DNA from: Mariannaea sp. PMI_226
Taxonomy: Eukaryota; Ascomycota; Sordariomycetes; Hypocreales; Nectriaceae
DNA: 64,000 nt
NCBI GenBank assembly: GCA_024336345.1
Contig: JANFOG010000009.1
Coordinates: 1,364,001-1,428,000, forward strand
Reading direction: 5' to 3'
Below the pieces are notes generated by a model. It saw only the letters and a program-made list of their open reading frames with translations. It was not told the DNA's origin and searched no databases. Every line of letters starts with the position of its first letter. The first letter of the stretch is position 1. The translations under genes were made by a program, and so were the position numbers. Below are positions 6,173 to 55,996 of the stretch, piece after piece.

Positions 6173-9100
6173 CTACTCCTGCGCAGACCAAACCCCCTTG
6201 AGCTGCGTCTTTCTCAAAATCAAGCCCGCCAAATCTCTCATGCTTCCACTCGTTAGAAGCTCCAATACCTGCAAGTGGGCCTTTAGTTCCTTGCCGATCC
6301 AGTTTCGTAGCTCAATGGCATTCAGCGAATCCAATCCCAGACTGGTGATGGATGTCTTGGCCTGCTCGGCGGCCATGACCTCCGGGGGGAGCATCAGAAT
6401 AGCACCGAGCTTGTCGCTAAGACCAGCTGTTACCACGTCCTGTGCATCATCCAGACTGGTTGTTTGCTGGAGTTTTTGTGAGGTTGTGACATTGGCTGCC
6501 CCGTTCCCGCCGGATGACTCATCCGGTGAATTGGCTAGGGCGTCATCCCTGAGATGGGAGAACTTGCCATCGGCCGCGTAATATGGCAGGTTTGCAGGAT
6601 CTTCAATGCCTAACCCGGTGATGCATTGGCCTCTGCACAAGTTGTTTACTTTGCCGTCCATTGCACTCTCTACTAGGGCTAAGACCTCCGCCTCGCCCAT
6701 GGTATTTCCCGACAGGTTCTTCAAGACCTGCGTCTGACGGGTAGAATTCTCAGCAAGGTAGCCAACACCCTCTACAGCAGTCAGATCGAGCGAGGAGGCA
6801 ACGAGGCCGTTGCGACGACGGTGGTGAACAAATGCGTCCAGGAACGTGTTGGCTGCGGCGTATGCCGCTTGACCTCTGTTGCCAACAATGCCCGCGACAG
6901 ACGACAAGACGATGAAGAAGTCGAGAGTCACGCCTTGGAGAGCCTTGTGCATGTTCCAGGCGCCATCGACTTTGGAACGAACGACACTTTCGTATTGTTC
7001 AAATGTCATCTTCTCAAAAAGAACGTCCTATAATAGAGATATAATTAGCTTCCGTTTGTATTAAGAATGATGTACGTAAAGTCTCACCTTCAGTACCATG
7101 GCAGCGTGAATAACACCGCGGATGGGAGGCAACAAGTGCTGGATCTCGTTGACAAGCCCATTCACGCTGCTTGCATCCGCAACGTCGCAAGACTTGACAT
7201 GAATTGCTGCGCCAATAGTGCGACAGTCCTCAATCAGCTGGCTGAGTTCGCTGGTCACCTTGCCACCTCGCGACAGCAGAACAACGTGCCGAGCCCCGCG
7301 TTGAACCATTCGCCTGGCCATGGACCGACCGAGACCACCTGTGCCTCCGATAATAACATACGTAGCATCTGCTCGCATCATATCTGTAGAGGGAAAAGGG
7401 TGGGTAGTCTAAAAAGCCATTATTAGTTGTCCATTGACGAGAGCCTGTTTGAGTTATTGCAGGGAACTTACCTTGACCTGGTGGTTACCGTCGTGGCTCA
7501 CAACGACCTTACCAGACGTCTTGCCACTCTGTAGCTTTCGTAGGGCCATCTCAACTTCAGAGATTCCAACGGTAGTAATGGGCCCAATTGGCTTGATAAC
7601 CTGGTTGGCTAGAAGCTCCATCACGCAGCCCAGAACGCGATACATGATCTTGGGTCTCTGTTCAGCGACAAGAGTCAAGTCCACGGAACTGAAGGTACAA
7701 TTGTAGGCAAACTTGGCCATTTCCAATCTAGTATTGGACGTGATGTCTCGCTTTCCGATCTCAATAAAGCGACCGAATGGAGCTAAGCAGTCCCACGTCT
7801 CACGCAGCAAATCTCCAGCCAGCGAGTTGAGAACAACATCAACTCCACGACCCTTGGTTGCCTCCATGAGAGCAGGGCCAAACTCAGTATCTCTACTGTA
7901 AAATATTCGGTGCTCGGGTACTCCGTAAGCATCCATAATGTGCTGCTTCTTCTCAGCACTTCCGACTGTCGCATAGATCTCTGCGCCAATCATCTGCGCA
8001 AGTTGGATCGCCGCCTGACCGACACCGCCGGAGGCCGCGTGAATGAGAATCTTATCGCTGGGCTCAAGTCGAGCAAGGTCAACCAAACCGTAGTAAGCAG
8101 TACTATACACGACGGGGATTGAAGCTGCAACCTCAAAGCTCATGTCATCTGGGATAACCGCTGCGCTTGTGGCTGGGCAACGAGCGTAAGTGCTGTACGC
8201 GCCGAGAGACATGGCGCACACACGATCACCAACTCGCAATGTTGTGACGTTTGAGCCAATGCTGGTGACGACACCACTTGATTCGACACCGAGATAAGGG
8301 CTAGCGACTTGTCCCATGGCAATGACAACATCCTTGAAGTTCATACCTGTGGCAGCCACTTTGATCTCAATGTCGTTTGGGGCCAAGGGCATCTCGGGCT
8401 CGTCCTTCCAGTACAACGAGTCGATGGCACCATAGGTACCAACAGCAATGTTGAAGCGGCGGCCCGGCTGGATAAAGTCTTGTAGGTAGGGAGCTGAAGG
8501 TTGAGTCTCGCGGAAGAGACTCAAGTTCATATCTTCCTCGTTGACGACGCGTGGAACAGTCAGATGCCCATCCTCCTCAGAGAATTCATAGTCCAATGGA
8601 GACCCATCCTCGCTCTCAATAAGAGAAGCAATCATTGCTTGGGAGATTAGATCCGCCTGATCAGACGCATGCAGCTCAGAATTTGGGTCCAGGTCCAAGG
8701 TCGCGGCCACAGTGCTATTCTCAGACCGAATCGTGCGGAGGAGACCTTGAATCAAGTTGGTCTGGGGGCTCTCTGCAAAACGATAAGCACCCGCGGTAAC
8801 CCAAAGGATGGATTGGCAATTCAACAGCAGCTTTTGGACCTTCTCAAAGGTCTCTTGGCTCATGCCATGCAGCAGAGGAGCATCCATTTCAGATAAACAG
8901 ATGTAGCGAGCAGAAGCGGAGAGTTGGACGCCGGAGAAGGGAGACACAGAAGGCTTGGATCCTGAACGGCTCTCTATGAGTGCGGACAGAGCTGACACTA
9001 ACGAGTCGCTTTTAGCTCGGTCTGTGATGATGACGATGGTAGATTCTTTGAGCGTGTTATCATCTTGTTCTTCCTTCTCGCAATGACCATTGATCTCGCC

Positions 9101-12100
9101 ATTAGCATGACCATTGATGCCGTTACTGTGCACATCTCCGTTGGATTTCTCGGCGTTCACAGATAATTCATCATCACTGCTGGGTTTAACGCCAAATGGC
9201 TCCCACTCAACTCGATAGCACAAAGAGCGCGGGGCTTGAGCCTCATCCATATCGTTGGTCACAGGCGTCATCCTGACACCCGCAAACCTGGCCACAGGTT
9301 CAGACTGGTCGTCTTTCCATGCGTCAACAAAGAAGTCAACAGGCCCTGGACTTTTGAAGTCGGGACAGCCATGCGCAACAACCTGGACACGCTCACCAGC
9401 CTGGTTAGGGAACACATTCGTGATCTCCATTTCCTTGATGGCAGAAGGTATGAAAAGAGAAGGCAACTCATCGTTGCCAGCTCCAAGGATGGGAAACATG
9501 AGCTGGAAACACAGATCCAGGAATGCTGCAGGCAGAATAGACGCTGGCTCGTGTTGCGAGTGCATAGTCGATGCTGTGTCGGGGATGACAACTTGACTTG
9601 TCGAATACTCACCCTGGACCCTGAGTCCGCCGTCAGGGTGAAGTTGGAAGACGGGTCCATAACCTGCACCGCGGTTGTCGAGTTCATTGTAGAACTTCTC
9701 CAAAGAAAGATGACCACCCGTTTTGCCAGTGATCTGGTCTCGGCGCATGATAGCTCCTTGAAGTCGACCGGCGGCGACGGGGTTGGCACCTCGGTGCTGG
9801 TTGACGCTAACTAGACCACGGCAGTGCTCAAGCCATCCACGCCTAGACGTCCATGATGAAATGCGAAATTCGTCCCATTCATTTGAGTAGGATCGGGTCC
9901 CTTCTGCGTATGCGTTGAAGGTGACCAGAGTCTCATATTGGACATCGTCGTCGAGGATCAGGGCCTTGGAAGCGTGGACTTCGCGAAGTCGAAAGCTAGC
10001 TATTTGCTCAGGCTTGATGCCTCGAAGCTGTGCTCTCTGAGAGGCTGCTTCAACAGCCATACACATGTAACCCGAGAGAGGGAAAGTAGCTAGAGACTGC
10101 ATTCGGTGGTCCTTGAGCCACGGGATATCGTCGGTATTGAGACTGTTTCGCCAGCTGGGGCTATTCTCACTGCATGTCTCTTCTAGAAGGCCAAGGAGGT
10201 CATGACGACCAAACGGCTTCATACGATGCTGCTGGCTGATACGCGACTCGAACCAGTACTTGTGTTCCGACCAAGGGTAAGGAACGAAATCGGTGATCAG
10301 ACTGGGCTTTCCTCGACCGGTCCCCGTCTGATTGACCTGGCCGACGTCGATATTGTAACCCTTGAGAAAAAGGTCTCCGGCAAGTCTGACAGCCGTGCTG
10401 GTAGCGTCTTGGTTACGGACGAGGGCCGAAAAATAGCTCACATCCTGTGCCGCCTTGGGGCTGATGTCCTTGAGGATCTGTTTGATAGGACCCTTGAGGG
10501 CGGCATGAGGGCCAATCTCGACGACGACATCGGGCTTTTCTTCAGTATACATCTCCTTGAGAGCGGAAGAGAAAAGGACAGGCTTCGTGAGGTTCTCAAC
10601 CCAGTAGGATGCATCGAGGGACGAAGTTGAGTCCAGTTTTGTACCCAGCAACGACGAGTAAAACTCAACTCCCTCAACAACCTTGGGTGCGATGGACTTG
10701 ATAGTGTCCATATATTCATCAGCAACACACTGCATGTGTGAAGAGTGGTACGCAACTTCGACACGAAGCTTGCGGTTGAAGACATTCTGGCGTTCGAGCT
10801 CAGCAGCAAGTTCGCATACGTCTTTCTCATCACCAGATGCGGTAATAGAGCTAGGAGAGTTCTCGCAAGCGATGCTGACGCCTTTGAGTCCAAGCCGTTT
10901 GATCACGCTCTTCACCTCTGCAGGGCCAGCACCAACGGCAAGCATAGATCCTCGAAACTCGGGGTGGTTAAGTTTTAACGAGGATGCCGCCTGGCCACGG
11001 TAGTAAGCCGCAGCCATCGCTTCCTGCATGGTGATGGCTCCCGTCGCGTAAGCGGCGACAATCTCGCCACTGGAATGGCCTACGACCATGGAAGGCTTCA
11101 CCCCCCACGAAGCAAGGAGGTCGGTGAGGCCCAGCTGAACAGCAGAGCATATGGGTTGTGAGATGTGTGCCTCGCCAATGACGGAATCCTTCCCGTTTTC
11201 TGTCAACAACTCCAACAGATCAAACTCGGAGCCGATGCTCAGCAGGTAATCCGACGCCGCTTTGACAGTGGCAGCGAAGATGGGGTGGCTGTCCATAAGC
11301 TCTTTGCCCATTTGCGCCCACTGAGCTCCCTGGCCAGTGTAAACAAAGGCCACTTTGGGAGAGGTGGGAGCTCGCATTGGATTAGCTCCAGAACCGTTCA
11401 GAGACAGCGCCAGCTCGTCGCAAGACGAAGCCACCAGGGCAACTCGCCAGGGGAAGAACGTTCTTCGTTCGCCCAGAGTATAGGCGAGATCGTGGACCAG
11501 ACGCTTCTGGAAGACTTCGGGGTGTTGCTCAATGTAGACACCAAGATGAGATCCCACGCGCTTCGCAGCCTCTTCGTCATTGGCAGAGAGGACGAAGAGC
11601 CTTGGGAACTCATTTTTGGAGGTCTGTGGCAGGTCTGTGAGTGCTGCAGGATGTCGCTCGAGAACAGCGTGAGCGTTAGAGCCGCCAAAGCCGAAGTTAT
11701 TGACGCTGATATACTTCTTGTTTTTGGGCCATGGTCTGACAGAAGTGGGCACCTTGATGTTCCACTCATCCAGAGGGATCGCGGGATTAGGTGTCTGGAA
11801 GTTGACGTTAGGTAGAATGAAGCCCTTCTCAAGCATCAGAGTTGCCTTGATAATGGAAATGATACCGCTTGCGTTCTCCAGATGTCCAAAATTGGTTTTG
11901 GCCGAGCCCATGTACAAGGGAAATCGCTTCGTTCGCCCGGATCCGAATACCCGGTAAATAGCTCCGGCTTCAATGGGATCACCAACCTTGGTGCCCGTGC
12001 CATGGGCCTCGACAAAACCCACGTCCTCAGGCGAGATACCTGCTCTGGAATAGACATCACGGATGAGCTGCTCCTGAGCCTCACCACTCGGAGTTGCCAG

Positions 12101-13064
12101 TCCAATTGTTTTTCCATCATGATTCACACCGGTATTGACAATAACCGATCGGATCTTGTCATTGTCTCTGATTGCCTCGTCAAGAGGTTTGAGGATTAAG
12201 CAGCCAACGCCTTCACCACGAGCGAAGCCGGATTTCGCGCGCTCGTCAAAAGCAAAAGTCTTGCCTTCATCATTGAAGATACTATGCTCAATTAGTTTGT
12301 GAAATATTTCTCATTAGAGAATTGGGGCTTACCCAAGCATAGACATGGAAACAGACTCATCTGGCTGCAAGAACAGGCTGCAGCCTGCCACAATAGCCGA
12401 ATCCGCCTCACCAGAACGGATGGACTGGACAGCTGAATGCAAAGCGTACAGACCAGATGAACAAGCAGTGTCAAGAGTGAAACAGGGGCCCCGGAGATCG
12501 AATAAATATGATATGCGACCAGCCTGAATAGATTGGTGGTTACCTGTGGCGGCAAAGGTTGGGACCTCACTCAGGTCCTTGTGTAGGCCGTCACGATAAT
12601 CCGACGACGTGCCACCAATGAACACACCCATGGATTTTCCTGATACGTACTCCTTGGGGAAGCCGGCATTCTCCAGTGCTTCGTACGTACACTCCAGTAG
12701 CTGTCTCTGTTGGGGATCTGCAAGTGGGTTAGCTCATGCCGGCTTTGGTGTGTAACTTGTGAGACATACCCATAGCCATCGCCTCCTGGGCGGTAATCTG
12801 GAAGAACGGAGCGTCAAATTTGGAAAAGTCGCGATCCATGAAGTATCCGCCTTTCATATTCAAGCATCCTTTCTTCTGGGGGTTTGGATGGTAGTACGCA
12901 TTGTTCGAGAACCGAGATTCGGGTACAGGGCTCCATCCATCTCGTGATCGAGAAACGAGTGTCCAGAACTCTTCAATAGAAGAGACATCCCCGGATAGGC
13001 GACATGACATACCCACGATGGCAATTGGCATCGGGTTTGCCTGAGTGTTGCCTGCAGAAGACAT
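6173..13064 (-). CDS. Highly reducing iterative type I polyketide synthase
   Basis: Exons (minus) are 13064-12770, 12717-12333, 12281-7472, 7408-7088 and 7027-6173; introns are 51-63 nt; 2,221 residues. Domains in order: KS with DTACSSG (Cys184), EAHGTGT (His320) and KTNFGH (His360); AT with GQGAQWAQMG and GHSSGE (Ser about 630); DH with the His in LKDHRM (about 951) and Asp in FLDLCFQ (about 1150); a non-catalytic linker/pseudo-KR with a low-complexity Asn/Gly insert; ER (about 1500-1825, HAASGGVGQAAIQLAQ); KR (GGTGGLGRS, LSSVAG, QAAYAAAN); ACP with LGLDSL (Ser about 2171). No C-methyltransferase and no thioesterase or reductase release domain is present. All catalytic residues I can check are intact, so an unbranched, strongly reduced chain is expected. 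It is divergently arranged with an FSH1-type hydrolase that could release the product. Confidence 0.95.
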
Positions 13065-46805: not shown

Positions 46806-49800
46806 ATGGATCCTCCGAGCATCGCTACCTCTGCCGCGACTTTGGCACGGACAGCAGGAGCTGTAAGTTCCGTCCCGACTCGATTGAAGCTTACGGACTT
46901 CATTGAGGCGGAGTTGGAGTATCGAGGTAGATGAAGTAGTGCTGACCTGTACTTAAGGTATCTCTTTGGTTCTTTGATCTGATCAACAACATCAATATTA
47001 TCGATACCAACATCAATGACCTCTCCAAAGAAGTCGAGCGCCTCACAGCTTTACTCGAGTCAGTGAAAACTGTAGTTCAGCAGTGCCAGTCGCAGGCCTT
47101 GACTCTAGCCTATCTTGATGGCCACATGTGGCGGCAGATTGACAATGCTCTCATCGACTGCAAAATCAATATTGAAGGATTACAGCGCCTCACTATCCGT
47201 CTCAATAACGAGATTAACCCAGAAGCCAAGAGCCTAGCAACGCTGTTAAAGAAGCCGAGCACACACTTCCACTTCAATGTTCATAAGGACAAAATTACGG
47301 AATACACCGGGAAGGTTTATAAATCGAACTGTGCCGTGCAGACAGCGTTGGCGGTGGTCAACGTGTAAGTTTCAATTCTGGAACCAATCCCCATCCTCCC
47401 CCAGCTAACCAAGTATGCTTTTTGAGATCTCTTATTTTCCGGACCAATGTTTCACAGGAAAGGCTGTTTCAGGAACTTGAAACCCTGAAAGAATTTTTCC
47501 AAGCGGCCCTGACAGCAGCAAATCGAACAGAAGTTGACCAGGATTCTTTCTCATCCCGACAGAACAGGAACCTCAAAAGTCTCGCCAGGGCTGCTCAGCA
47601 CTTCCATAGTCATGCAAGTTCTACAGCTAGTTCGCGCTATGGGCCTTCGCGTGCTTCCTATTCAAGTAGCCTGTGGGGTAGCGACTTCGGAGGGTTATCC
47701 GATTTTCAAAGGGACAGAATCGAACAATGGAATGACGTGTCGACGGTGGAAGAGTCTACTGAAGGTGGTACGGTTGGGTTCTCTGGCCCGAGCAACCACT
47801 CAGCGGCTTTCACCTACTTGGATACTGGGGGTCCGTCGCAGAATTCAAGTAAGAAGCACGGCACTGCTTCTTCGGGCAGTGGCGATAAAGATGAAGAAGA
47901 GTCCGATGTGGAAATCGACTCCCTAACAAACCTCAAGCAACTAGCCCGTACCAATTTTGACTCGCAAAATTATGCTAAAACTGAGCAGTGTCTGCGCCTG
48001 GCCCTGGAGCGCTCAACCAGCGATCCGTCCGTTGACTTCAGACAGCTCAAGACCCAGTTGGCACTTTGCTACTGTCTACAGGAGAAATGGAGTCTCGCCG
48101 AAGCAATCTTAGCTCCGCTAACTAAGACGGAGTCACCCTCAAATCTGCCGGTTTTTCATTTGCTGCAAGCAATAGCCCTCGCACAGCTCCAAAGTCATCG
48201 CTTCGATGACGCCTATCTCACCTGTAAACGTGTTCTACAGGGGAAGAAAAGAATTGTTGGGCGGCATAGCTACGACTACCACAAATGTCTTCTTCTCTTT
48301 GCGACTATTTGCGAGAAAAGGGGTGACATGTTGAAAGCTGAGGCTGTTCGACATTCAGTCCCACGGGGAGGTGCCATATCTGAGGACCTAATCCAAGTTC
48401 CGACGCAATATATTCTTACTCATGCAACACTTATTGACTTGGTCTTTCCTAAAAATCACCAGGCAGGTCTCGCCCCTAAAGGAGAGGTCACTGACACAAA
48501 TACTATACGCCCCAGGTCCCCTCTATCTGCCAACGGAACAGAGTTGGATTCAGAGCTGACAATCGCGGGGCGCCGGACCAGACTTGCTCCAAAGAGATCT
48601 GGAGATGGAATCTACCTTGCCGAAAATGACGAAAGAAAAGGGTTTCCGGCCGGAGAAATGGACACAGGCAAGGAGTCCTCTGTACAGAGTGTCCCTCGGG
48701 CCGATTTTACATTTCCCTTTGATGGAAAATCCGATTCTACAGCAGGTGGACCAAGTCAAGCCACTGGAAAAAGCTACGCAGTAACTAGCAACAGACAGAC
48801 ACTGATGGGTTCGCATGAGACTACGGCTCTGTCAGACGATTCTCGGTACCTCCATCCAAATCGGTATCACCAGCAGCTGATTCGCAACTCGTCAGTGCAA
48901 TCTCCGCAACAGCCATCCCCAAAGAAACACATAAAAAGTCCCTACCTCCATACAGACATACCGAGCTCTGACTCTAGTGTACCGGGTAAGGTTAGCGGCC
49001 AGAGTTCGTTGTCTGTGCAGAGCTTTCCACGGCGTTTGAATCCAAGCCAGTCACGGGCTGTCGGTAACAGAAACAAGCTCATAAGGAGAATTAATGGCCG
49101 GACACTGCTGAGAAACATGGATACTCTGAGAATCGCTGATGAGCTTACGGTTAACAGCCAAGGGGCCCACTCACAGAGTTCGAGTCTGGACACAGCAGAT
49201 GGCCCATCGCCATCAATGATAAGTCCGACAAGGCCTTTCAATCGTCCCTCAGAGGATCAAGGACTAGAACTTTTAGTACATCAGATGCAGGATGCCCAAA
49301 TAACATCAGCCAAGCCAAATATTGACCTGATCGACGAAGTGAAAGATCTTCCGACCCTTCCCCAAACGGTTGTTGAGGGGATCCAGAGAACTGTCACCAG
49401 CGACTCACACTCCACTCTCGAAGTCGCCACGAATGCTTCTAACCACTCTTCACGGCCATCTCGCATTGATACCGCCCTAATTACGAGAGTTAAATCTTCC
49501 ATTGATATGGCATGCCAGGATTCTCTCAGGATAAGATGGACAGTACAGAAGGACATCGGTAATATTGGTCGGACAAGGCCATTTGGCAGGTCCGGTACAC
49601 CGCAATTTCTTCCAATCTGTAAAGAATCTCCTAGTTCCGGAGCTTGTTTCGTTGGCGTTTGTATAGGTTTCGAAACTCCCACTTCAATCATACTCAGGAG
49701 GGGGCAGACTGGTATTACAATATGCGAGATGCCAGCGATATCGACGGTTAGCCCTCGTCTCTATCCAGACCCAACTGCTGGCCCTCAGTCTGGATTAAAG

Positions 49801-51014
49801 ATCCGAGACGGCGTCTTCCGCAAGATGATCCCCTTTGCCCGCAAGGTATCGCCATTGGCGGATACCTCTGTATATTCGGTCGACGTTTCGTCCCTGCGCG
49901 ACTGGCTGGATGAATTGGGTACCGGTGAGATGACAGGCGAACACGTCAGCCTATTCGGAGACATGAAAGAGTTGCACAATATCTGTGCTACGGCAGCACG
50001 GCATATTGAGCTAGAAATCGCAAATTTACTGCGTCAGGGGCAAGTGATGGAAGACTCGGGGACAATTGCGTCCCTAAGACTTGAACGACTTGTCTATGCG
50101 CTACCTGACTTTATAGATCGGACGGCTTGGATGTTTTGGACTAGCATCTTGGCTGAATGTCCTCTTCTTCAGCATGCCAAGGTCATCCCCCAATCTTTTG
50201 CAGTCGTGCAGTATTTCCTTGACAATGGTCTGTTGTTTCCGAATTATGAAGACCTGGAGCAAAATATCCAAATTCCAATAGTTGTTCTGAACTGTGGTGA
50301 GATGCTTGTGGATTGCATTCCATACTATTTGCAAAAAGTTTCGCCCAGTTTTGTCAAGATCACTGAATCTCCGTCTTCATACATGGCCGAGTTGACTGGG
50401 TAAGGACGTGCATCCCGTTCCTCTGTGTTTCATACGATCAAGGCACTGACAGATATTTCAGCCTCAAGCATGTTCAAGCTGAATTTGCAAAACTTGTAGA
50501 AGGTCAACTGAAGCAAATGACACGCGAGCTGCGTCGCAGAATTGACAACGCGACAATGGAGAAACTCGTAGAGTCCTGCTGCGAGCAGTTCCAACAAAAT
50601 ATTTTCCCACATTTCGAAAATAACGGCAGAGAATGGACAGTCGAGTTTGAAATGCCCCAGACCATCCCGGGTCTCCAGCACGGTCGGCTAAAGTTTAGTA
50701 ATGCTGAGATGCTGAAGTGCTTCGAGCCGAGTACGAGGATGATAACAACGATGCTGCTAAGAACAGTACAAAAATTCAAATATAACGTTTCAGTGAGTTC
50801 TCTCCGTTTATTTACTCAAGACTGCTGCTGATTTTCGAAATAGAGCATTCTCCTTTCTGGTCCGTACTTAAAGTCGAAGTACCTCAGGGACGAACTGAAA
50901 GAGGTGACTGATAGACTGTGGTTTAAATACGGTATTCTGAAGAGCGTTCCCTATGAAGCGAATTATGAGGACGTATGTGTACCCGGCGTTTGGTCTCACG
51001 CGATTTCAAGTTAA
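46806..51014 (+). CDS. STAND-type N-domain, TPR and degenerate Hsp70-like protein
   Basis: Exons are 46806-46862, 46958-47362, 47458-50399, 50462-50792 and 50844-51014, giving about 1,301 residues. Residues 1-200 match the helical N-terminal domain of fungal NLR/STAND proteins (MDPPSIATSAATLARTAG, then LLESVKTVV). Residues 309-450 form TPR-like helical pairs (YAKTEQCLRLALERS, WSLAEAIL). A Ser/Pro-rich disordered linker follows to about 830. The rest reads as an HSPA12-type Hsp70 fold: FVGVCIGFETPTSIILR (phosphate 1 position), IPIVVLNCGEMLVDCIPYY (phosphate 2 position, near 1094) and SILLSGPYLKSKYLRDEL (near 1246). The usual DxGTT and DGGGTxD residues are lost, so ATPase activity is doubtful. 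The exon 2/3 junction has an alternative differing by one residue, and a gtatgt donor at 50974 could extend the C-terminus. Role inferred only: signalling or non-self recognition. Confidence 0.82.
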
Positions 51015-51500: not shown

Positions 51501-52085
51501 CTAGCAACCCTGCGGCTCCCAACCCTCAGGTTGAAGCACCTCTCCGCTAACCTCAAATCCTGGAGCAACTTGGGGTGGTAACTGTTAGCACAATCAAAAT
51601 TCCTGAACCCGAAAACGTACAGTATCTTGCTTACCAGTAGTTCCAACAAGGGTATACTCTCCGAGACTCCTGCTACGTTGCCACTCGCCCCGGTTCACTA
51701 CTGCCTGCGGTCTCTGACCCTTGCACAGGTCTGGGCCCAAAATATGGTCCCTCACGCAGCTACCATTATTATAGGATAGACTAAGAATCAACGGTGCTCC
51801 CGCATAATAGTGCCACACCTCGGAAGCATCTAGCTTATGCCAGAGTGAGTAGCCTGCAGCCCCATCGAGGAGGTAGTATATAGCCGTGCTGACGGAACGA
51901 TTGCTGTTTCCGACGGTCACTGGATCCCGAAAGGTTTCAACGAAGTAGCCTTTCTCGGTAGAGGGTTGAAGGTTAAGCTGCTGGATGACTTCCGCTGCAG
52001 ACGCATAATCATGCCCTCGCGTGCGCAAGGTTTCTGGGAGGTGCAGGGCCGAGCAGAGCGGCAATAGGAATATTGAGAAACGCAT
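51501..52085 (-). CDS. Secreted DUF985 (Cupin_5) protein
   Basis: Exons (minus) are 52085-51635 and 51568-51501, giving 172 residues. The frame extends upstream of 52085, but the internal ATG opens a classic signal peptide (MRFSIFLLPLCSALHLP), so that start is chosen. The cupin core is clear: AAEVIQQLNLQPSTEKGYFVE, TAIYYLLDGAAGYSLWHKLDASEVWHYYAG and LSLSYNNGS, then VVNRGEWQRSRSLGEYTLVGTT. Splicing at gtaagc..ccaag joins to VAPGFE, the conserved family C-terminus. DUF985 (PF06172) proteins are small cupins; a few are epimerase-like, most lack a known reaction. The signal peptide implies export, which is unusual for this mostly cytosolic family. Neighbours give no functional hint. Confidence 0.85.
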
Positions 52086-52655
52086 GGGCCGAAGCAGGGT
52101 ACTGGATACCTCTAGGATGATTTGGAACTGGACAATAATGCAATAGTTTTTGTATTTCCAAGCTGCTTTATCCTCCTCTATATATATCAGCGTAAGCTCT
52201 CGTGGGGCGTAAGCTGCACAGAGCTCCCGGAGGAGTCGGACTGATTTAAGACAATGATGACGTATAAAGAGTGGGTGTGGCTGCAATCCTACGACCGAAT
52301 TCAGAATTGAGTAAGCGATCGGCCTGCTACCGAATACGACGTACATATAAGGGTAACATAACATCTAGATCGTCATTAATGTGTTGCGAGGCAATTTAGC
52401 TATGGAAAGCATCGTCTTAAACCCGTGATTCAACTATTCCGTGTGCCTGTGAAAGACCTTAGTATAGTTGTGAAGATCCCCAAAGCGAGGTTCATTTTGC
52501 TCAAGACAAATAATCAAAGATCAGGCATCATGAAATTTTGCAGCTTTCTTTGAAGGGGCTACGAGAGCATTAAATGGTTAGTAATGGCAGTTTTTTTCAG
52601 ACTTGAAGCTGTCAACCGGCAGCCCTCTTGATGCCTTCGGAACGGTGAAGCCATC
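52086..52655. other. Intergenic, promoter of the cupin gene
   Basis: No gene-like frame besides the 5' extension of the cupin frame, which is judged leader sequence. Confidence 0.5.
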
Positions 52656-52993: not shown

Positions 52994-53987
52994 CTTTCTT
53001 TTTGCTTAATTCTCTAAGTTTTGTTTTATTTTGGTCTTGGCCTATCTGGTCTCTGAAAGGGAGGAGATTGAAGAGGTGATACAACTTTTCCAGCGGCTAC
53101 CGTCGTTCATTCGAAGATGCGTGTCGGTTGTCCGCGCCGTGGACGTAGGATCAATATAAATAATCAATAAACAAGTACAGCCTAAATAGATTGTAGTTGA
53201 TTTAATGCATAGTCCTATTACAATTCGTCAATTCGTTCTGCTGATACTTCAATCACCGTCGCGGTTCGGGAGATTCGATGATACACCAGTGGCGATCTAG
53301 TCAACAAGGCATTCCTTGTATACCAACTAGTATCGCATCAATTCCATGATACCCGACTGTGAAATCATTCATTCCTGGATCATTCCTAAGAAAATGTTTC
53401 CAATGTTGAGAAAGGATGGTATGTGCTGGAAACGATTTATATGCTCCCGGAAGCTGGGACTTGAATGATGTCTGGGTATAAGGCATGCAGAAGTGCCCCA
53501 ACCCGGCCATTACTCAGTAGGTAAGCTGGGGAGGTGATACTCATGCATCAGATGGCGGCTTTTTTGTTAGGGAGGCCCGTCTTCCTGATTGTTTTTGCTC
53601 AGCATATGAATTAATCCCATTTTGCATCAACGCACAAAGATGTTATGAACAATGGACATGAAGAAAGCTTACCTCGATATCCATTCGCCAACTCCTCAAT
53701 CTTTCTACACCAACGGAAATACTACGCAAATACGGAGATACGCAGTGGAGGCCGACTGATGCTAATTGGCCCTGGCGTAAAGGATGCGGATACCATAGTA
53801 AGGATGATCCATTTTAGGGACCGTCTCTATCTCCGATAGCTCATCCCCGGCCACACTGTCATCTCCGAGTCCGATTTTTCTTCTTTTCTCAGACACTTTT
53901 CGCGACAGCTGGGATCTTGGTTACCATATCAAACTGTGCAACGCGGGTCCTGTGTCTCCGATTGTCTTACTTTTTTCTCACTTGAAG
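52994..53987. other. Intergenic, promoter of the Zn2Cys6 gene
   Basis: No supported gene. A 64-codon plus-strand frame near 53645 has no features. The last few hundred bases are the upstream region of the transcription factor. Confidence 0.5.
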
Positions 53988-55996
53988 ATGACTCCATCGG
54001 CTGCGTTGGAGAAATCAAGTCCGATTATCCCCAATTCTCAAGGGGTGACCCGAGAACTGAAGCGCCGCTCTCGGAAACCTGTGAGTTGTGAGCCTTGCAG
54101 ACACTCAAAACTCCGATGCGATCGCCGACTGCCTTGTGCCACTTGTTTACGAAGGGGATGGCAAGATTCTTGTGCATATGGGGCAACCCGTACGGAATCT
54201 ATCCGCCCGCCTCATCGTAGAAGAGGTCGGCCTACTACTGCTGTTCAGGCCGTCCCTCAGCCACAGCAAGCTCAGCTCATCGAGTCCTCGGAGTCAGCCT
54301 CACCTCGAAGCCAAAGTCCAGAACCAATCCACCATCGATGGGATAATATTCTAAGTCGACCGCCACTTGGAAAGAATGCTCCAATTCTCACAACGACTAT
54401 TCCGTTCACTCTGTCCTTTGGACCGATTGGACCGACACCGGAGCTGCTTGCTTTGCTCCCTCCGGATAACGTCTGCGAATATCTAGTTTCTCGATACTTT
54501 GCACACCTTTGTCCTCTCTTTCACATATTACACGGCCCAACGTTCCAGAAACAGTACTCGGCTTTCCTGCAGGACCGTCAACGAGTAGATTTATCATGGC
54601 TAGCCTTGCTTTTCGCCATCTGCTCATTGACTCTGAAAACAACCGAGCCCAATGATTCCGCATTGACAGAACTGTGGCAGACGCCATCCTCTCCTAAAGA
54701 CCTGCCATCCATGTCTCAACAATGCCGAAACGCTGCTATGATGGCGCTGTCTCAAGACCATTTCCTAGTCCGACACAACCTCAACACTCTCGAAGCAATA
54801 CTGGTCCTAGTCCATACTATCTCCGACAGTGAGGGTGCCGAGTACGGGTGGGTTTTACTTGGGAACGCATTGAATATTGGAATTGCTCTCCGCTGCCATT
54901 CATCCCCAGCCGAGCTCAACTGTATAGAAAGAGAAAGACGCCGTCGTTGCTGGGCAGGGATCTTGATTCTCCATACATACCAAGCCCTCCTGTTTCGCGA
55001 TACGGATTTATCTTTCCTCTGCAACATGAAATTTACAATGCCAGCCGAGGTCAACGACAATGATATCTTAGAAGATGAAATCATACAGTCACCGAGCCAT
55101 GTTGCATCAGTTCAACTTACGCAAATGTCTCTTATGAGATTCCAAATCGGTCTGTTTCAACTGTCAACTCAGATATGTAACCATATCTCTGGCCCTGATC
55201 GACTAAGCGAAGAGTTGTTGACCCATTTCGATTCCGCCGTATTGGCAGAGCAGCAGCGATGGGACTCGGTGTATTTGGTTCACGGTGCTCGAAGTATTAT
55301 AGACACCGCCAGCTACGCACATTGGTGTCTCTTACAAACCTTTGCGCACCAGTTGTATCTGCTGCTGCACCGCCCATTCCACAACTCTCGATCTACCCAA
55401 TTTCGTCCTGAGTCTAGGGACAGGTGTGTCAAGTCAAGCCTAGCTTTGATGAATATACACCGTGAATTCTATGAGCTCCCCAGACTTAAATCCTATCGCT
55501 GGTTGGTAAACGGAAGCATAAGCTGCAATGCGCTGCACGGAGCTGTTGCATTGACTTCATGCCTGCTCGATATGCCCAATGATTCCGACTTTACGGAACA
55601 CATTCCTGTCATTGATGCCACTGTACTTCGGCTGGAGAAGCTTCGAACGAATAGCCCAGCTTGTGCCAGCGTCTATCCTATTCTGCGTCATTTACGGTAA
55701 GTAGCATCCCAAACTGCCAATGCCCAATGCCTAAATGGAAAATTAACATGCATCAGCTCTCGACTTTCTCGACAAGACCCAGCACCATCTCCTAGTCGAG
55801 AAACCGCCGAAAGTAAATTTGACGACTGGGTTACCAGCATTGATTGGTTCAGGCCTGAAGACATAGACTGGGTTAGTAATTCATACCGTATTTGAAGCCA
55901 ATCATGGAGAATGGAAGAGCTGACTCAAGATAGGACTTTTGGAATGGAGACTATTCAACCTTACTAAGCGATGATCACCAAACTGCAGTATTTTAA
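53988..55996 (+). CDS. Zn2Cys6 fungal transcription factor
   Basis: Exons are 53988-55696, 55757-55871 and 55934-55996, giving 628 residues. The ATG is MTPSAALEKSS. Residues about 30-65 carry the binuclear zinc cluster CEPCRHSKLRCDRRLPCATC...C (C-x2-C-x6-C-x5-C-x2-C-x8-C) with flanking basic RELKRRSRK and PPHRRRGRP. A Fungal_trans-type middle homology region follows (YFAHLCPLFHILHGPTFQKQY, IALRCHSSPAE, ERERRRRCWAGILI). The third exon is inferred from a 62-nt intron with a gctgac branch site; it turns a short tail into IDWDFWNGDYSTLLSDD. Without it the protein ends at 55895. Nuclear DNA-binding regulator; the target genes are unknown. The nearest genes are the cupin to the left and the arrestin to the right. 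Confidence 0.92.

Follow-up and report, generated by a model that had tools for sequence, protein, structure and literature searches.

The stretch of Mariannaea sp. PMI_226 DNA analysed here (64,000 nucleotides, termed the window; contig G000:C25) contains a gene, BGZ63DRAFT_406620, whose product joins an N-terminal HeLo-like domain, of the kind borne by fungal NOD-like receptors (NLRs), to tetratricopeptide repeats (TPRs), a linker and a putative Hsp70 nucleotide-binding domain (NBD) with a degenerate active site. By analogy with MLKL, we propose that the protein is a conserved fungal pseudoenzyme switch in which the HeLo-like domain is an effector restrained by the pseudo-Hsp70 module, a reading to which we give a probability of roughly 0.42. 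The component domains are known and a function can be suggested from the domain make-up, but we found their combination to be apparently undescribed: no description of a HeLo-like domain combined with Hsp70 was found in titles and starts of abstracts of the open-licence PubMed Central (PMC) literature, among the matches listed, and the terms HeLo-like and Hsp70 co-occur in no paper of that literature. A preliminary description of the window had proposed a protein with the N-domain of a signal transduction ATPase with numerous domains (STAND), no NACHT or NB-ARC domain, TPRs, a linker and a degenerate Hsp70 NBD, and motif alignment, folds and profile comparison bear out this anatomy.

Gene structure and family

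The gene spans positions 46806-51014 of the forward strand in five exons, with introns that are all of the GT..AG type, in a 42.2 Mb genome (Mariannaea belongs to the Nectriaceae, Hypocreales). The joined exons translate letter for letter into the public 1312-residue record (P0002), which confirms the end coordinate that had been proposed; the motif positions in the preliminary description were right to within ~12 residues, an offset that fits an alternative acceptor of intron 2. The features of the gene are as follows.

46806..51014 (+), complete coding gene; spliced window sequence identical to P0002, homologues in protein search
46806..47532 (+), HeLo-like domain (PF17111/'PigL_N'), residues ~1-190; Pfam, hhalign and helices of the P0022 model
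47917..48402 (+), TPR-like region of kinesin-light-chain type, residues ~319-480; sub-cut-off TPR matches, kinesin-light-chain alignments and helices in the P0022 model
48403..49527 (+), fast-evolving linker, probably disordered, residues ~481-855; 22-25% identity, P0022 counterpart with pLDDT (predicted local distance difference test) < 50
49648..51014 (+), putative pseudo-Hsp70 NBD, residues ~896-1312; structure folds, lobe II by hhalign at 98.5%
49648..49686 (+), degenerate phosphate-1 motif, residues 896-908 (FVGVCIGFETPTS); paired by eye with GIDFGTT in two Hsp70 genes of the same genome, C19 and C22
50185..50217 (+), degenerate connect-1 motif, residues 1075-1085 (IPQSFAVVQYF); ISEPEAAALFC in the C19 gene
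50281..50316 (+), degenerate phosphate-2 motif, residues 1107-1118 (VVLNCGEMLVDC); LIVDCGGGTVDL in the C19 gene
50850..50885 (+), degenerate adenosine motif, residues 1259-1270 (LLSGPYLKSKYL); LVVGGFGASEYL in the C19 gene

Protein searches returned at least 10, 15 and at least 23 matches, several of which are fragments or shortened models. The family is treated here as the 18 proteins that carry the C-terminal half, fragments and shortened models not being counted. They come from Hypocreales (Mariannaea, Dactylonectria, Cosmosporella and two Fusarium), Glomerellales (ten Colletotrichum) and Sordariales (two Podospora and Immersiella), with lineages looked up for one species per genus. The searches depend on shared words, and the count speaks for presence in these genera, not for absence from other fungi. 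In the tree, the ten Colletotrichum sequences group together (support 100/99), as do the three Sordariales (100/100); the Hypocreales sequences form no clade, with long branches for Fusarium and Cosmosporella whose placement is unsafe. A search of the Mariannaea proteins found a single locus of the family.

The full N-to-C architecture, whose count across fungi had been suggested as a check, is present in 15 of the 18 proteins and in all three orders; it is therefore likely that the N- and C-terminal parts lie on one transcript. The N-domain is in the same number of models, the first residues being missing in P0014, P0016 and P0021, and is absent from those of P0015, P0019 and P0020, which may reflect loss or missed exons. 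The degenerate motifs, together with truncated or fused models among the relatives (e.g. P0006-P0008 and P0030), could suggest a decaying pseudogene or an annotation fusion of two genes. The open frame, the GT..AG introns, the conserved signature residues, the one architecture in three orders and a lobe II of the Hsp70-like part that has changed less than the linker in every pair compared argue against this explanation, which we regard as scarcely credible.

The C-terminal domain is a putative pseudo-Hsp70

The preliminary description turned on whether the C-terminal half has an Hsp70 fold, and a match to that fold was found by comparison of models and, for lobe II, also by profile. Structure comparisons of the models recover the two-lobed Hsp70 NBD. 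By hhalign, lobe II aligns at 98.4-98.5% with a reference profile made of two sequences only, the Hsp70s C19:493838 and C22:1718942 of the same genome, here called HSPA12-like. The first C-terminal profile was built from 15 proteins less P0015 and P0018, since this part of their gene models is broken. Lobe I is assigned from predicted models only, with low confidence around the phosphate-1 strands. Sixteen proteins, 12 of them with a complete or nearly complete C-terminal half, gave no Pfam HSP70 match at E<=1; NCBIfam Hsp70 models gave none in 6 proteins, and an 8-sequence C-terminal profile matched no PDB sequence at E<=10. The Hsp70 assignment is drawn from the own-genome protein search, the profile-profile comparison and the folds. 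Viral Hsp70 homologues were among the best rows of a comparison with viral structures, which added nothing. Five of the 15 relatives in one protein search carry the NCBI label 'Hsp70 family protein', so that the link to Hsp70 was already present in annotation.

A substrate-binding domain was sought after the NBD, and none of the 18 members carries a following domain (the end of P0015 is broken). The window protein stops 2 residues after a PGVWSHAI segment, and short C-terminal tails occur only in the Colletotrichum proteins P0004, P0012, P0013 and P0018. The C19 and C22 Hsp70s share a homologous lobe II with the window protein, but both retain GIDFGTT and EPEAA, which it has lost; the C19 protein further retains DCGGGTVD and VVGGFG, both likewise lost from the window protein, which ends after the NBD. 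In the C22 Hsp70, phosphate-2 reads NLGGGIVD and the adenosine motif VVGEFG, so that this protein is itself partly altered; it is a possible half-way pseudo-ATPase.

The active-site positions were compared across the family under what we take to be their Hsc70 numbers (D10, E175, D199, G202, T204, D206, G338, G339 and R342), those in lobe I being placed by motif pairing by eye and not by significant sequence alignment. The D10 position is C, S, E, M or A in all 17 readable members (E once, in P0021), and the E175 position is Q, H, K or R in 18 of 18. At D199 there is N in 17 members and S in one, at G202 an acidic residue (E or D) in all 18, and at T204 L or I in all 18, while the Gly at G339 is lost throughout. 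The catalytic and phosphate-binding residues D10, E175, D199 and T204 are accordingly retained in 0/17, 0/18, 0/18 and 0/18 members. The D206 position stays acidic (D in 14, E in 4), Gly is kept at G338 in 18/18, and at R342 13 of the 18 have K and one has R. The proposed substitution of catalytic Asp and Gly residues thus holds for the phosphate-1 and phosphate-2 Asp in every readable member and for the G202 and G339 positions in all 18. We read the C-terminal domain, from these sequences, as a maintained pseudo-ATPase, because the D-to-N change recurs and an LNCxExLVDC segment is conserved. In all 12 pairs compared, lobe II has changed less than the linker, but in 9 of them it has changed more than the TPRs; the pseudo-Hsp70 is under constraint, though it is not where the protein is most constrained.

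An Hsp70 that hydrolyses ATP through different residues would be consistent with an Asp or Glu kept at D206 and with retention of the initial Gly of the adenosine motif, as well as with the acidic residue at G202 (all 18/18) and the Glu of P0021 in place of the phosphate-1 Asp. With the phosphate-1 Asp absent in 17/17 readable members, the connect-1 Glu and phosphate-2 Asp absent in 18/18 and T204 replaced by L or I in 18/18, we consider such hydrolysis very improbable.

The N-terminal domain is HeLo-like

The first ~190 residues, whose coding stretch is interrupted by introns at 46863-46957 and 47365-47426, correspond to PF17111, which is named PigL_N in the Pfam library used and Helo_like_N in PMC9815663. 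When 16 family proteins were scanned, PF17111 scored above the cut-off in three (P0004, P0012 and P0017) and below it, with E < 0.001, in three more (P0003, P0005 and P0022); the window protein gave E 0.0016 and P0014 gave E 0.35, and no match was found in the remaining 8 of the 16. By hhalign, a profile of the family N-terminus (15 of the 18 proteins) matched five N-domains borne by STAND loci of this genome at 97.6% (E 2.7e-12) and eight other own-genome PF17111 loci at 96.8%, whereas three control comparisons gave 0.1-0.2%. The suggestion that the protein opens with a STAND-type N-domain was therefore correct, the match being to the N-domains of own-genome NACHT-type receptors. The comparison covered 13 of 17 own-genome PF17111 loci, L024, L032, L034 and L038 having been left out before counting. 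The 17 loci were merged from 22 genome-wide matches, which do not include the window gene itself; roughly nine NPHP3_N matches, among the weakest, were dropped, none of which added a PF17111 locus.

The structure of the N-domain was read within the model of the whole P0022 only, where it forms helices at 2-26, 32-58, 70-99, 114-157 and 161-188 with pLDDT of 38-72 by blocks. Helix 1 of the window protein is apolar. In the profile match and the apolar first helix the domain resembles the HeLo-like (PF17111, sesA/HELL) N-domains of fungal NLRs and HELLP-type executioners; unlike those proteins, it is followed by TPRs and an Hsp70 fold without NACHT or NB-ARC. HeLo-like domains are placed in the MLKL four-helix-bundle superfamily and described as membrane-targeting (PMC12881547).

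TPR-like repeats and linker

The TPR-like repeats of the preliminary description were recovered as TPR-type Pfam matches, all under the cut-off, and as helices in the P0022 model; the repeats are degenerate. Their kinesin-light-chain type comes from PDB sequence matches of a four-sequence profile, which are weak (best E 0.057). This type has been used to model the TPRs of fungal NLRs (PMC4986451). The linker expected between the TPRs and the Hsp70-like part is the fastest-changing region and is probably disordered, the equivalent stretch of P0022 having a pLDDT < 50. In three pairs (P0002 versus P0003, P0004 and P0025) identity is 22-25% in the linker, compared with 54-59% in the N-domain, 52-58% in the TPRs, 39-53% in lobe II and 23-39% in lobe I. 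Polymorphic fungal NLRs are described as varying in repeat number within their repeat domains (PMC4986451); a tandem DNA repeat array was sought in the window gene and none was found.

A receptor without a STAND module?

The absence of NACHT and NB-ARC was upheld: Pfam NACHT, NB-ARC and NPHP3_N gave no match at E<=1 in 16 family proteins. A STAND NTPase hidden between the N-domain and the TPRs was considered and rejected, no P-loop pattern preceding the Hsp70-like part in any of the 18 proteins. The further suggestion of an immune- or incompatibility-type receptor is a hypothesis. A NACHT, NPHP3_N or NB-ARC match follows within 3 kb at only 5 of the 17 own-genome PF17111 loci, so that the domain alone is no STAND marker and does not make a receptor, and a tandem-repeat array of the allorecognition type was discarded since the gene contains none. 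The single own-genome locus, the homologues in three orders, the two Fusarium models that lack the N-domain and the lack of NLR matches in the window also count against it.

The neighbourhood was examined as a possible clue and rejected as such. Ten open reading frames of the window were scanned (GH47, lipase, DUF899, cupin, Zn2Cys6 factor, arrestin-like, MFS, amine oxidase and two without a match), and no NACHT, NPHP3_N, NB-ARC or further HSP70 match lies within the window, the nearest NPHP3_N match (C25:1346284) being ~64 kb upstream of the gene. The downstream neighbours, a cupin_5 (DUF985) frame at 51594-52364 (-) and a Zn2Cys6 factor frame at 53808-55700 (+), have no tie to the finding. 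Long open frames at 6173-12310 (-) look by eye like a putative polyketide synthase. Elsewhere in the genome, at G000:C19:4083619-4085160, a HeLo match (PF14479, E 3.2e-55, 331-residue frame, +) stands head to head with an NPHP3_N match (-), 441 bases apart, possibly a het-S/nwd2-like pair.

Two further observations concern relatives. The fragment P0033 has its TPR part and linker in common with P0031, P0032, P0034 and P0035, which have IGVNLNLGD at the phosphate-1 place; over residues 545-580 it then runs into SNNVAAPELVVGIDFGTTC, an apparently intact phosphate-1 motif of Hsp70 type, and it is either the module joined to another Hsp70 or the product of a chimeric contig. In P0030 (Cercophora sp. 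LCS_1), the start of an MFS transporter is fused to the family spacer and TPR part, probably a gene-model error.

Proposed function and alternatives

In the proposed switch, the pseudo-Hsp70 and TPRs would act as a sensor and as a latch that restrains the HeLo-like domain. The C-terminal module would change on binding a partner (a chaperone, a client, or a factor linked to stress or to a pathogen), or perhaps on binding nucleotide that it does not hydrolyse, and this would free the apolar N-terminal helix bundle to oligomerise or reach a membrane. The logic would be that of MLKL, whose four-helix bundle is under the control of a pseudokinase, with Hsp70 standing in for the kinase; MLKL is not known to have TPRs, and it bears a pseudokinase where the window protein bears a pseudo-Hsp70. 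MLKL is described as a four-helix-bundle effector coupled to a pseudokinase (PMC12881547).

Several observations weigh against this reading. Lobe I alone aligned with the own-genome Hsp70 pair at just 0.1% by hhalign (17 of 18 proteins in the profile), and the TM-scores of the structure comparisons are low (0.30-0.37 by query length). Mean pLDDT was 56.8 and 54.5 for the AlphaFold models of the C-terminus and of the whole P0022, and was lowest at the linker and at the phosphate-1 strands, which fell below 50 in both models. To these are added the slower evolution of the TPRs than of lobe II in 9/12 pairs and the 12 of 17 own-genome PF17111 loci that have no STAND NTPase within 3 kb. Finally, the Fusarium proteins P0019 and P0020 keep the TPRs and pseudo-Hsp70 with an N-terminus that is unrelated or missing, so that, unless exons were missed, the supposed N-terminal effector may be dispensable.

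These two Fusarium models also favour the main rival explanation, that of an atypical Hsp70 co-chaperone or scaffold with no role in cell death, whose TPRs and pseudo-NBD would bind and regulate canonical Hsp70/Hsp90 or HSPA12-like Hsp70s while the N-domain oligomerises or tethers it. The single locus and the homologues in three orders fit this view. So do the atypical Hsp70s, described as regulators, of which three subfamilies are already recognised in Ascomycota (PMC3879978). Ssz1, a non-canonical Hsp70 in the ribosome-associated complex, has an Hsp70 fold without ATP hydrolysis, as proposed for the window protein, and was among the top, tied rows of the VIA structure comparison, but it has an SBD-beta and the partner Zuo1, and presumably neither a HeLo-like domain nor TPRs. 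It binds ATP without hydrolysing it and retains the SBD-beta (PMC7083937), whereas the lack of a substrate-binding domain in the family speaks against a co-chaperone. The kinesin-light-chain type of the TPRs, albeit weakly assigned, is the one that models fungal NLR TPRs (PMC4986451), and the N-domain is as well conserved as the TPRs in the three P0002 pairs; both points also speak against a co-chaperone, which we consider the less likely explanation but a serious one.

A pseudo-Hsp70 that mimics a parasite-targeted HSPA12-like Hsp70 (targeted, e.g., by viruses or bacteria), as an integrated decoy, binding to which would activate the HeLo-like domain for defence or allorecognition, would explain the fusion of an NLR-type N-domain to a dead copy of a host protein, the related Hsp70s in the same genome and the faster change of lobe II than of the TPRs. 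Putative integrated decoys are discussed for NLRs of Sordariales in PMC12258605. Set against this are the conservation of lobe II above the linker in all 12 pairs and the lack of a repeat array, of a STAND module and of any NACHT, NPHP3_N or NB-ARC match in the window, and we judge a decoy receptor improbable.

Returning to the pseudoenzyme switch, a bolder and unlikely version is that the MLKL principle arose here a second time and independently. A dead Hsp70 would sense chaperone status or proteotoxicity, or an attack by parasites on this state, and hold a HeLo-like cell-death domain in check, so that Sordariomycetes would possess a sensor akin to NLRs that has no STAND NTPase. Were this so, P0033 would be the same module joined to another Hsp70.

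In three fungal orders, the family places an NLR-type HeLo-like N-domain on a putative pseudo-Hsp70 rather than on a STAND switch, and censuses of NLRs based on NACHT or NB-ARC would overlook it. If the proteins are co-chaperones instead, they would constitute an undescribed atypical Hsp70 subfamily beside the three recognised in Ascomycota (PMC3879978). If the N-domain is an effector, the design in which a pseudoenzyme controls a helix bundle would extend to the Hsp70 fold, and chaperone biology would be tied directly to fungal cell death.

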